This document shows positions 48,077-53,517 of a stretch of 64,000 nt of DNA, in pieces. The notes below the pieces were generated by a model, which did not search any database, had not been told where the DNA came from, and was given only the letters and a program-made list of their open reading frames with translations. This stretch comes from Iodobacter fluviatilis (GTDB lineage Bacteria; Pseudomonadota; Gammaproteobacteria; Burkholderiales; Chitinibacteraceae), in NCBI RefSeq assembly GCF_004194535.1, contig NZ_CP025781.1:1364001-1428000 (forward strand), in the 5' to 3' direction. Within the stretch, counting starts at the first letter, position 1, and every line of letters starts with the position of its first letter. Made by a program: the position numbers and the translations under genes.

Positions 48077-48661
48077 ATGCCCCAAAGCCATCACACTCAA
48101 GACCAAACAGCTAATCCTGCTCCACTAGGGCTACTCGGCTTTGGTATGACCACCGTGTTACTGAATTTACACAACGCAGGCGCCATTGAGCTTAGCGCCA
48201 TGATATTAGCCATGGGGATATTCTATGGAGGCATTGCTCAGGTTATTGCAGGGATTTTAGAATGGAAGAAAGGCAATACGTTTGGTACCGTTGCCTTTAC
48301 CTCTTACGGCATGTTCTGGCTCACGCTAGTTGCCCTACTGATACTTCCTAAGCTAGGGCTTGCAGAGTCCGCTTCAGTCAATAGCATGACCGCCTACCTA
48401 ACCATGTGGGGAATCTTTACCGCATTTCTTTTTATTGGCACGCTTAAGTTAAATAAAGCCACACAATTTATTTTTGGCTCGCTCACCATTCTTTTTGCTC
48501 TCTTAGCCGTTGGCGACTACACAGGCAGCGCCACCATTAAACAAATAGCGGGAATCGAAGGAATTGTTTGCGGCGCATCGGCCATTTATGCAGCGATGGC
48601 CCAAATATTAAATGAAATGTACGGAAAAACTATAATGCCTTTAGGTGAAGTAGGCTGCTAA
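48077..48661 (+). CDS. satP: Acetate/succinate transporter, GPR1/FUN34/YaaH (SatP) family
   Basis: A 194-aa inner-membrane protein with six hydrophobic segments and the family signature [10 protein letters not shown] at 13-22, followed by the conserved [13 protein letters not shown] and [11 protein letters not shown]. SatP takes up acetate and succinate, which would feed the aceA-aceB shunt seen at 4-7 kb. The IS3 element begins 3 bp after its stop. Confidence 0.92.
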
Positions 48662-48707
48662 TTATGGACACCTTCAATTGAGATAAAATCTTCTCTGGAG
48701 GTAAGTC

Positions 48708-49001
48708 ATGGCCAGTAGTTACACCACTGCATTTCGTGCAGAAGCCGTTAAATTAGTACTCGAACAACACTTGAATGTGCCGCAAGCGATGCCCAAACAG
48801 ACGCTGGATAAGTGGGTCAAATTGGCACAGCAAGGCAAGCTAGCGGGCCTGGATCAACATCGCGTTCAGCCTGTCGACGAGCTCAGCGCCGAGGTCGCCA
48901 GGCTCAAACGAGAACTGGCCGAAAGCAAAATGGAGTGCGCTTTTTTAAAAAAGGCCGCCACGTACTTTGCCAAGGAATTCACGCTAAGTACGCGTTCATG
49001 A
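48708..49001 (+). CDS. IS3-family OrfA
   Basis: 97 aa: helix-turn-helix region (TAFRAEAVKLVLEQHL, KQTLDKWVKLAQQGKL) and a leucine-zipper-like tail (VDELSAEVARLKRELAESKM). The HTH is shorter than usual between residues 23 and 30, suggesting a small deletion. A slippery A-AAA-AAG (48947-48953) would shift ribosomes by -1 into orfB. Strong GGAGG ribosome site. Confidence 0.85.
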   Translation: MASSYTTAFRAEAVKLVLEQHLNVPQAMPKQTLDKWVKLAQQGKLAGLDQHRVQPVDELSAEVARLKRELAESKMECAFLKKAATYFAKEFTLSTRS

Positions 49002-49391
49002 AACAGCAAAGAAAGCAGTATCCGATTTCACAAATGGCACAATGGCTTGGCCTGTCGCGCAGCGGATTTTATAACTGGCTACAGTCCAAATCAGCACCAA
49101 AGCAGGCGCATCGCCTGCTGCTGGAAGTCAAAATACGTGCAGCACATGCGCACGGCAGAATGACTTATGGGCCACGACGTTTACAGAAAGAGCTTGCGGC
49201 TGATGAGGTACAAATTGGCTTGAGTCAATTGCGCTATTTGAGGCGCAGACTGGGTTTGCGCTGCATTCAAGCGAAGAAATTCAAGGCGACGACCCATTCA
49301 AATCATAGCTTGCCAGTGAAAGAGAATTTACTCGGGCAATGTTTCGAACCGGTCAAGCCGAATGAAATGTGGGTGAGCGATATTAGTTACA
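48998..49391 (+). pseudogene. IS3 OrfB transposase, exon 1
   Basis: Starts MKQQRKQYPISQMAQWLGLS, includes the HTH_21 region (HAHGRMTYGPRRLQKEL) and reaches the first Asp of the DDE core in MWVSDISY. The frame then enters the intron after the first base of the next codon. Joined to 51672 it reads DISY-I-PTTEGWLY, the expected transposase sequence. Confidence 0.85.
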
Positions 49392-50069
49392 GTACGCCCA
49401 GCCAGCGTAGCCTGCATTGATTGGGGTGATGCTGCTTGAGCATGTTTGGAATGCAGTATCCCAGCAAGTCGTTGATGTTGCGCTGGGGAATGCCCTTCTT
49501 CTGCTACAAGGGGAAGTGAGCCGAAGCGGCGGTGACCTGCTGACACTGGCAGGGTGACGAAGTCCGTGGGAAACGGGGTTTGCGGCGAAGCGGTTACGCC
49601 AAGATGAACCTCTAGGCTGAGCATGGGACGGTTGAGGAACACGTACCTATTAAACCGCATCTGAGGATTGAAATGTCACCACGGCCTACACCGTTTAACA
49701 GGCTGGATTTGGATTGGTATCAGTGACATATATCCACTGATGCCGCGATTGTAGCCAGAAATGTAGACTGGTCTGTATGGAGTCATGGGGAGTGTGTAGC
49801 TAGACCATGGCATCTAAATCGACTTGCGGAAAGCAAGGATAAAGACTGCGATAGGCAACCTCACCCATGCGTTGAGTCCAGCATGTGAACTGGGGAAGGC
49901 TTGCACAAATGCCAAGGGAGTGTGCCCCCGATGATGTGCGAGTTGGCGGAGCCTCCGTAGTAGTCCGAAACTGGGAAAGCCAGTTACATGGCGAAGGGAG
50001 GCAGTTTAAGTGGTTTGCTGGGTCGACTAACTGACCACAATAAGGTGAAGACCTTTGATAATCAGTGAA

Positions 50070-51425
50070 ATGCAAAGCAAGCTGGCAATATGGTCTTCAA
50101 AGGATAAAGAACGCAAGTTCGATCGTCTGCTGAGGCTCATTGCTGAACCGGTCTGGCTACGCGAAGCTGCTCACACTACGCTGGCGTCAAGTGGAGCAAA
50201 GACACCGGGAATCGATGGTGTCACTCGGGTTTATATGGAAAATCATCTCCAGCATGAACTTGAAACCTTACGCACCGAGCTACTTGCTGGCACGTTTCAG
50301 CCACAAGCCGCCCGTCGTGTGTAAATTCCAAAAAGCAATGGCAAGATGAGGCCTTTGGGCATCCCTTGCCTGCGTGATCGGATTGTACAGCGTGCCATTT
50401 TGATGGTGATGGAGCCGATATGGGAAAGTGATTTCCATACCGTTTCATACGGATTCAGAAAAGCGCGCAGCGTACATCACGCCATTCGCACGGTGAAATT
50501 ACAGCTACAGGATGGGGGAGAACAAAGCACAGCTGGGCGCTGGATTATTGAAGGCAATCTGGCCAGCTACTTCGATACCATTCACCATCGATTACTGCTT
50601 AAAGCAATGCGCAAGCGTATCGCAGACCCGCGTTTACTGGCTATGGAAGTTCATCAAAGCGGGCTGTGTAGATCGCGGTTTATTTCGGGCGGCAAGTGAA
50701 GGCGTACCGCAAGGTGGGGTTATTTCACCTTTGTTATCAAACATCATGCTGCATGAGTTTGATACTTGGATGGAAGCGAAATACCTTAACAAGAAAGTAC
50801 GTAAAGATCGTTGGGCATGGAACTTTGGCATACAAAACCAGCGCCCATTGCGGTACGGGAGCAGCGCCAGTGGAAACCGGCAATATCTTATTGTCGATAT
50901 GCTGATGATTTTGTTGTGATTGTCAAAGGCAGCAAAGCGCAAGCTGAAACTGCGCGCGCAGACTGCCGAGCATTTCTTGAAGATCAGCTTAAATTGACGC
51001 TGAATCTTGAGAAAACCCACATTCCGCATGTTAACGATGGCTTTGTGTTTCTGGGGCATCGAATCATTCGTAAGCGTGGCGCGCGCGGTCAGATGCGGGT
51101 GGTGAGTACAATTCCATGGGATAAATATCGGCGCTTTACCGAGAAGTTGGTAAAGCAACTGTCGAGTAATTACAGCACGAATCGAATGGATATGCTGGCG
51201 AGTCTTAACCGACACCTCACTGGGTGGGCAAACTTTCACCAATACACCGACTTTACTGCCACTTTATTCAGCAAGTTAGATCGCGCCATCTTCTGGAAGT
51301 TTGGCTATTGGCTGGCGCGTAAATACCGACGCGGCTTTAGATCGCTCATGCGAGATTATGTTAAATCGCCAGCAAACGGTGTCGCTAAAACTTGGTTGAT
51401 TGGAGGGCAAAACACTCATGGCTAG
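50070..51425 (+). pseudogene. Group II intron reverse transcriptase/maturase, broken
   Basis: Start MQSKLAIWSSKDKERKFDRL. RT blocks are PGIDGVT, MRPLGIPCLRDRIVQRAI, the conserved SEGVPQGGVISPLLSNIML and the catalytic YADDFVVIVKG. The C-terminal maturase X domain includes LNRHLTGWANFHQ; no HNH endonuclease was seen. Lesions: a TAA stop at 50322 (ARRV-stop-IPKSNG), a frameshift near 50640 and another near 50850. The YADD box itself is intact. Confidence 0.88.
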
Positions 51426-51586
51426 TATGGAGCCCTCACACTCCGGCGGCTGATTACAAGCCGGAAGAGTCGGTTCAAATGGCGAACCTTGACTGAAAAT
51501 CCATTCATATTGCACGACGAGCCGATCAGCACCATGGAGTCGAGGTATGGTGAGGTTGCCTTTGCGATGAGCAGCACTTAGATGAA

Positions 51587-51671
51587 GAGCCGGATGCATT
51601 GAAAGGTGCAAGTCCGGTTCGGAGAGGAGAGACGGGGAAATAGTACGACTACGCCCCGTCTCTTACTCCAC
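51587..51671 (+). ncRNA. Group II intron domains V and VI
   Basis: Domain V is the 34-nt hairpin at 51587-51620, starting GAGCCGGATGCATTGAAA and ending AGTCCGGTTC, close to the canonical form. Domain VI follows with a 10-bp stem AGAGACGGGG / CCCCGTCTCT (51628-51637, 51654-51663) and an A-containing segment that would supply the branch point. Confidence 0.85.
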
Positions 51672-52107
51672 TTCCGACCACAGAAGGCTGGCTTTATTTG
51701 GCTGGAATCAAGGATGTGTTTACTTGTGAAATCGTCGGTTATGCGATGGGTAGTCGAATGACAAAAGAGTTGGTGAGTGCCTCATTGAAGCTGGCCTTGG
51801 CGCAAAAGCGACCTAAGGAAGGATTGATTTTACATTCGGATCGAGGGAGCCAGGCAAGTGGCATTGGCGGGCTTGCGGGGGTCTATGTCACGCAAAGGGA
51901 ACTGCTATGACAATGCGCCAATGGAAAGTGGGCTCATTGAAGAATGAATTGGTTCATCACCGTAGCTACAAAACACGAGTGGAAGCGCAGGAGGAAATCA
52001 CCGAATATATTGAAATTTTTTACAACCGAATTCGCCGTCATTCACGTTTGAACGATGAAGAGCCAGCAGTATTTGCCAAGCAATTTGAGCTAGCAAATCA
52101 GGAATAA
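51672..52107 (+). pseudogene. IS3 OrfB transposase, exon 2
   Basis: Begins PTTEGWLYLAGIKDVFTCEI, holds the second Asp in ILHSDRGSQ and the C-terminal NELVHHRSYKTRVEAQEEIT with YIEIFYNRIRRHSRL. Between them there are a deletion after GSQ, a frameshift around MSRKGNCYDNAPMES, and another before GSLKNELVHH. The catalytic Glu region is therefore not translated in frame. Confidence 0.85.
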
Positions 52108-52264
52108 ACCCAAAGCGTGGTGTCCGTGATTGACGCAGCCCTCGGTATTGCGACTCAGCCTTGGCAGCGAGTTTGCGAACCCAAGCGCGAATGGTGTGGT
52201 AATCCCCCCACAAAACCAGCTCATTTTTAAGTAGAATTTTCTCGTAGTCTTTGAGGAGCTCTAC

Positions 52265-52528
52265 ATGAAAGCAGCACGTTATTCTGACAGCCAGATTATG
52301 GCGATTTTAAAGCAAGCGGAAGCCGGTTCAACCGTCCCCGATCTGTGCCGCGAGCACGGCATGAGTTCTGCCTCTTTCTACAAATGGCGCGCTAAGTTTG
52401 GCGGCATGGACGTCTCGATGATGACGCGGATGAAAGAGCTGGAGGACGAAAATAAGCGCCTTAAAAAGATGTATATCGAAGCCCAGATGCAAGCGGATAT
52501 CATCAAGGAGGCCATGTCAAAAAAGTAG
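52265..52528 (+). CDS. IS3-family OrfA (second element)
   Basis: 87 aa with HTH ([37 protein letters not shown]) and a coiled coil ([20 protein letters not shown]). It ends at TAG just after a slippery A-AAA-AAG (52519-52525), the usual -1 frameshift site that makes the OrfAB transposase. Confidence 0.92.
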
Positions 52529-53352
52529 TGAAGCCATCTCAGCGTCGTGAGATGGCTCAATGGGCCGTTGAAACCAAGGCCGTTTCTATTCGTGCAGCTT
52601 GCGCCAGCTTTGCGATTAGCACGACTTGCTATCGCTATGTTCGTAAGCTGGATGCAGAAAATGCCCAAATCGCTGACTCATTGGTTCAACTCACGGAAAC
52701 GCATCGCAACTGGGGCTTTGGCCTTTGTTTTTTGCATCTGCGAAACGTAAAGAAAAAGCACTGGAATCATAAACGGGTCTACAGGATTTACTGCGATTTA
52801 GAATTAAATCTGCGGATTAAGCCTAAAAAACGCTTAGATCGTGAAACCCCAGCGCCATTAGCTGTGCCAGAGGCAAAAAATGAAACGTGGTCGATGGATT
52901 TTATGCACGATCAATTGGCCGATGGCCGCAGTATTCGCTTATTTAATGTGATTGATGATTTTAATCGGGAAGGATTGGGCATTGAAGTCGATTTCTCTTT
53001 GCCAGCAGAGCGCGTCATACGCAGCCTGAATCAAATTATTGAATGGCGCGGCAAGCCAAAACGAATCAGGTCCGATAATGGCCCAGAATATATCAGCCAT
53101 CTGCTGAAAAATTGGGCAGAGCAACAATCGATTGAATTGGCTTATATTCAGCCTGGCAATCCACAGCAAAACGCATATATTGAGCGTTATAATCGGACTG
53201 TGCGTTATGAATGGCTGGCCTGCGATGACTTTGAAAGTCTTGCTGAAGTACAAGAAACCGCAACGCAATGGCTTTGGACTTACAATAACGAGCGTCCGCA
53301 CATGGGATTGGGCGGCATCACCCCGAAACAAAAACTGGCATTACATGCCTAG
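52528..53352 (+). CDS. IS3-family OrfB transposase (second element)
   Basis: A 274-aa DDE integrase-like transposase with all catalytic acids: Asp in WSMDFMHDQ, Asp in RSDNGPEY, Glu in [15 protein letters not shown]. The C-terminal [16 protein letters not shown] is typical of IS3 subgroups such as IS407/IS51. The GTG start overlaps orfA by one base. No lesion seen. Confidence 0.93.
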
Positions 53353-53517
53353 CCTCTACTTTTAAGTGAGCTTAAAAATGGGGGATTACCGTGTTACGCG
53401 CCAGCCCTGTGCGCGTGGTGATTTCCATCATTTCCATGGTGATCACCTTTTATCCTCTGCTCAAGAGTTAAGCAGAATAAGTAAAGCACCTGGGTCAGTT
53501 TTCGGTCGGCGTCAACA

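Follow-up and report, generated by a model that had tools for sequence, protein, structure and literature searches.

Which element interrupts the transposase gene at positions 49392 to 51671 of a 64,000-nucleotide stretch of the Iodobacter fluviatilis genome (the window, by which we mean the whole stretch of DNA analysed), and is it still able to splice and to move? The initial annotation, made from the letters of the sequence, had read this segment as a group II intron inside an insertion sequence (IS). It had left two readings side by side, an intron stranded in a dead IS or an intron still spliced in trans by another maturase.

Introns of this kind in transposases of IS3 elements are already known from Escherichia coli. 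E.c.I4 is described as a class A intron, which had three near-identical members at that time (PMC3552965). According to PMC3522654, all E.c.I4 copies reside at specific positions in the transposases of IS629, IS911, ISEc16 and ISEc31, and some of them carry a disrupted ORF; the same source suggests that already inactivated E.c.I4 arrived in E. coli on larger mobile elements. Bacterial introns without ORF are rare and nearly always found alongside related introns in the genome, and a related maturase splices them in trans, as outlined in a review (PMC4424553). A ribozyme is likewise tied to an IS in the group I intron IStrons described in PMC4227781. These, however, are group I and form a chimeric element, whereas in the window a gene of the IS is interrupted by a group II intron.

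Borders and RNA structure of the intron

The group II intron occupies 49392 to 51671 on the forward strand (2280 nt), and its borders are exact, as had been proposed: the Rfam model RF00029, the borders common to its relatives and an empty-site IS homologue agree on them. The search with a covariance model for the intron class gave a match of RF00029 (the Rfam group II intron model) to 51585-51671 at 58.8 bits versus a gathering score of 40. Folding of 51585-51671 yields domain V and domain VI as expected (z -7.06, none of 200 shuffles equally good). Domain V comprises 34 nt (51587 to 51620), and domain VI with the 3' end follows at 51621 to 51671, its bulged branch A at 51665 lying 7 nt upstream of the 3' border. 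The two domains thus look intact, in line with the initial annotation. In DNA comparison, relatives sitting in other exons align to the intron from nt 1 through nt 2280; the alignment to three relatives (L072, L076, L077) ends at intron nt 2228.

The 3' end of the intron, AC, fits the group II 3' AY. The common group II 5' consensus is GUGYG. The window intron starts with GUACG, as do 27 other 5' ends in the comparison, not counting the rows of the window intron's own two copies (L001, L002). Among all 60 rows, GUACG is found in 33 and GTGYG in 27, the ends having been located with the pattern GT[AG][CT]G, so that other starts could not appear. The GUGYG consensus is not strict. An alifold consensus of the 5' 660 nt, computed from 31 GTACG-type introns including the window intron itself, contains 174 pairs, of which 76 show compensatory double changes. 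In the window intron one of the 174 is broken, compared with 0 to 13 in the 30 other introns, and its ribozyme thus gives no clear sign of decay.

The host IS3 element

The host orfA (48708 to 49001, forward strand, as all features given here) matches the IS3 model under its curated whole-protein cut-off. The 5' exon (48941 to 49391), which carries orfB as far as its first catalytic Asp motif, also matches the IS3 model. The 3' exon, at 51672 to 52107, holds the damaged remainder of orfB, with Pfam matches to rve and rve_2. The best match of the host pieces to NF033516 (IS3 transposase) has an E-value of 2.1e-33, each piece staying under the curated cut-off, which is set for whole proteins. 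A same-genus genome holds L186, a homologue of the host IS that lacks the interruption. Its alignment, at 83%, runs over the junction without a gap, so that it agrees with the junction proposed earlier instead of differing from it; further on, L186 carries an in-frame stop of its own. The lesions that had been claimed for the host orfB are seen as a gap relative to L186 downstream of the junction and as split reading frames.

Two further traces of the host IS were observed. A MITE-like element of about 210 bp elsewhere in the same genome (C1:1140454-1140661; L039, L048) has both host-IS ends and no middle. Short matches to the left end in genome G008 may merely reflect contig ends, as in L185.

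Distribution of relatives

At E-values up to 1e-100 the maturase is present in 2 of 274 genomes of the class, the own genome included. The intron DNA has a match in 6 of 61 genomes (the own and 60 relatives), two of which, G025 and G027, hold short pieces only. Intact copies of the intron exist in same-genus genomes. The piece in G027 (L055) is a 148-nt 5' fragment of 95% identity whose flank does not resemble the D-x-T-Y exons described below, and four relatives (L071, L076, L079, L085) are split by insertions of about 1.2-2.0 kb. L054 (with L057, in the same-genus genome G007) is about 97% identical to the window intron over its first ~600 nt (21 differences in 680 nt). In the maturase region the two differ at 374 of 1505 sites; over the last 150 nt, L054 is 95% identical to L064 versus 80% to the window intron. 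To judge from this mosaic of identities, L054 is probably a recombinant intron.

Insertion site across relatives

For 58 rows the 5' border could be set from where the intron matches and from the pattern GT[AG][CT]G, independently of the exon. These are the 60 five-prime ends minus L055, being the fragment, and L130, whose border is ambiguous by one base. L069 and L126 have no 5' end within 40 nt, and 5' ends were left unexamined for L059 and L060, which resemble L052 and L053, and for loci matching only after intron nt 140. The residue four codons upstream of the border is Asp in all 58 rows; the motif closes with Tyr in 53, Thr or Ser precedes this Tyr in 56, and Trp stands three residues before the Asp in 55. 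The insertion site hence follows the motif W-x-x-D-x-T-Y nearly always. Family models were run on the 53 host exons whose open frame reaches 40 aa or more and assigned 47 to IS3 and four to IS6, with none for L082 and L094; IS481, a model that overlaps IS3, also matches 23 of the 53. The Asp is the sole invariant column among these exons, and it is the first D of the DDE triad established for IS3 transposases. The earlier placement directly after the first catalytic Asp of an IS3 OrfB was thus right, and this position is common to the intron's relatives. In a further set of 14 loci, four of which had no 5' end, W-x-x-D-[IVF]-T-Y precedes the border in all ten readable ones; nine of these stand close to L139, an intron of E. 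coli, and so do not count as independent lineages. Relatives of the intron in other bacteria occupy the same spot in transposases of at least two families.

L139 shares with the window lineage the exon site (D-I-T-Y, then one base) and a similar domain V/VI, and its maturase has 63% protein identity to that of the intact relative L053. We infer that L139 is E.c.I4 itself. With this assignment and the published class of E.c.I4, the window intron would belong to class A. The two differ in the 5' end, GUGUG in E.c.I4 and GUACG here, and also in that the window maturase is broken and its host is a dead IS3 element.

Guide pairing and a proposed codon register

Two guide sequences in the intron face the 5' exon. 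EBS2 (49672 to 49677, intron nt 281-286) faces exon positions -13 to -8 and covaries with -9 and -10. EBS1 (49729 to 49734, intron nt 338-343) is located in a consensus hairpin loop and faces -6 to -1, with covariation at -1 and -5, weaker at -6 and none at -2. The corresponding IBS2 (-13 to -9) and IBS1 (-6 to -1) lie at 49379 to 49391, over the codons D-I-S-Y plus one base. A first guess for EBS1, nt 404-410, was dropped, as the columns tracking the varying exon bases are nt 338-343.

Over 58 rows the mean pairing is 9.52 of 12 versus 8.81 (sd 0.09) with the exons permuted, and none of 2000 permutations was as high, where the EBS columns had been chosen by a scan for exon-intron covariation on the same rows and the permutation ignores relatedness. 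None of 2000 permutations reached the observed value for position -1 alone (0.52 versus 0.35 permuted) or for -9 and -10 jointly (1.79 versus 1.51); 10 of 2000 did so at -5 and 68 at -6. At -2, pairing in the 58 rows was not above chance (545 of 2000). The window intron itself pairs at 10 of 12 positions, with EBS1 mismatches at -2 and -5, and 11 of the 57 other rows pair more.

The pairing appears to follow the codons of the exon. At the third positions -11 and -2, an exon T stands opposite G in 36 of 41 cells and opposite A in five; at -9 and -4, it stands opposite A in 106 of 109 and opposite G in none. The third positions -8 and -5 are paired in just 10 and 28 of the 58 rows. Several observations run counter to a clean codon rule. 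Pairing is missing at the first position -10 in 12 of 58 rows and at -1, which opens the next codon, in 28 of 58; neither EBS1 nor EBS2 covers -7, where the Thr codon starts; and the window intron has A, not G, facing -2. In five introns with D-E-T-Y exons, EBS2 is altered at the matching bases. Four of their hosts had enough exon for the models and match IS6; the fifth (L079) had an open frame of 11 aa.

On these data, with the counter-examples having lowered its odds somewhat, we lean slightly towards the view that the guide reads a protein motif at the DNA level. EBS2 and EBS1 would be in register with the codons that spell the first catalytic Asp motif of DDE transposases. They would pair mainly with codon positions 1 and 2, place G against the C/T thirds of the Asp and Tyr codons, and leave the freer thirds (-8, -5) largely unpaired. 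One guide could in this way home into many transposases, and a two-base switch in EBS2 would go with IS6 hosts. Since few lineages are represented, a reading of this pattern in terms of selection is tentative. We found no description of a codon-register guide in the titles and abstract openings of the literature searched, and it may be in print already.

The maturase remnant

The intron-encoded maturase remnant, with RT and maturase domains, extends from 50067 to 51575, as judged by Pfam (RVT_1, GIIM) and by the match to an intact relative. One stop and two frameshifts had been claimed for it, and these were recovered: two short frame-shifting gaps are present relative to L052, L053 and L054, and an in-frame stop closes the first open piece. 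The longest open frame is 206 aa in the window. It reaches at least 512 aa in 20 of 21 full-length uninterrupted relative rows and 291 aa in L064, in a count that excludes introns split by insertion and in which L059 and L060 probably repeat L052 and L053. RVT_1 is found on two of the three larger window pieces and GIIM on one of those two; the first piece has no Pfam match. The RT and maturase ORF that a group II intron carries in domain IV is thus present in pieces, and both domains are whole in L053. For L053, Pfam at E-values up to 1 gave RVT_1, GIIM and RVT_N, besides a YezG-like match that is weak. An HNH domain was absent from these matches, which describes an RT/maturase without endonuclease domain, as in the class A lineage of E.c.I4. 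RmInt1 of Sinorhizobium meliloti is likewise described with a maturase that has no endonuclease domain. RmInt1 also resides in IS elements and belongs to class D, a different class from that of the window intron.

Because the RNA is still well formed (1 of 174 pairs broken), the loss of the maturase was probably recent. Window-specific changes at codon positions 1/2/3 (5/6/12, versus 2/2/19 in L053 and 4/0/3 in L052) were considered as a decay signal and set aside, being too few for a claim of relaxed selection. A defence role for the RT was also rejected, as the PADLOC matches of L053, judged on the best 25 of 67, look like generic RT similarity.

Second copy and other introns in the genome

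One further copy of the intron is present in the genome, 100% identical over 2280 nt. The intron of the window lies in a duplicated block (48646 to 52197) of IS, intron and short right neighbour, which occurs elsewhere in the genome at 99.97% (3552 bp, one mismatch between the copies). Both copies are near ribosomal RNA operons. As the right end of the IS is read here, the block extends past it, and the second copy therefore looks like a block duplication and not like a second homing; for the same reason independent transposition of two IS copies is unlikely. In the window, an IS-like element with a 274-aa rve frame (52198-53390) interrupts the right neighbour of the block and is absent from the other copy.

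The search for an intact sister copy, proposed in the initial annotation, ended with one sister, identical and equally broken. A protein search with an intact relative as query found only two members of the lineage in the genome, both with stops, and no intact maturase of the lineage. It also brought up a distant second maturase family, with an uninterrupted 450-aa frame at 14 places, which is 40% identical to the query over residues 4-246 and 27% over residues 275-408. RF00029 matches at least 21 places in the genome, the two copies described here and at least 19 with a different domain V/VI type, 150 of 276 first-look candidates having been scored. In this second group II intron family (L016, L019-L036), the ends of most copies are nearly identical and their downstream flanks resemble each other, which looks like homing into a repeat. 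A search of the genome with the strict pattern W-x-x-D-I-(S/T and others)-Y, which does not extend to D-F-T-Y and other variants, hit the two occupied sites and no free one.

Discussion

The element is probably a group II intron from the E.c.I4-like lineage known from E. coli (labelled class A in the literature), with an intact ribozyme and a dead maturase, left stranded in an IS3 element that is itself dead. This explanation is based on the borders, the RNA structure, the guide pairing, the lesions, the duplication and the failure of the genome search to find an intact maturase of the same lineage. Its history would have begun with homing into an IS3-family orfB, EBS2 and EBS1 pairing with the bases that encode the first catalytic Asp motif. 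Copies with a working RT/maturase would use it for their own splicing and would reach further transposases by reverse splicing. Here both the maturase and the host transposase are broken, the two copies would derive from one broken copy by block duplication, and the element would now be a passenger that neither splices nor moves.

Of the two readings offered at the outset, the stranded intron is the better supported, with maturase and orfB both broken and no intact maturase of the lineage found in the genome. The other, splicing in trans by the maturase of the genome's second group II family, could draw on the well-formed ribozyme, on the 14 places with a 450-aa frame and on the reported splicing of ORF-less introns by a related maturase (PMC4424553). 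The available maturase is, however, a distant one in both aligned segments and serves introns with a different domain V/VI, and no other of the window intron's lineage turned up in the genome search; as the host orfB is damaged, splicing would moreover give the host protein nothing. We therefore regard trans splicing as improbable. It is more doubtful still that the lesions are sequencing errors in an active intron. The well-kept ribozyme and the intact copies in same-genus genomes would suit such errors, but two chromosomal copies share these lesions, barring an assembly that duplicated one copy in place of the other, and the damage extends to the host orfB.

A variant compatible with the stranded intron has the IS block bring it into this genome in an already broken state. 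Both copies lie within the same duplicated block, and arrival in an inactivated state is what PMC3522654 suggests for E.c.I4. Intact close relatives live in the same genus, and loss inside the genus would thus have been equally easy; we hold the variant to be possible, on the unlikely side.

As a stranded remnant, the window copy is an ordinary decayed mobile intron, and it is the wider targeting rule that deserves following up. The lineage suggests a retroelement that specialises on other mobile elements via their most conserved codons. If true, such targeting would account for hosts in more than one transposase family and would give a testable rule for the change of host.
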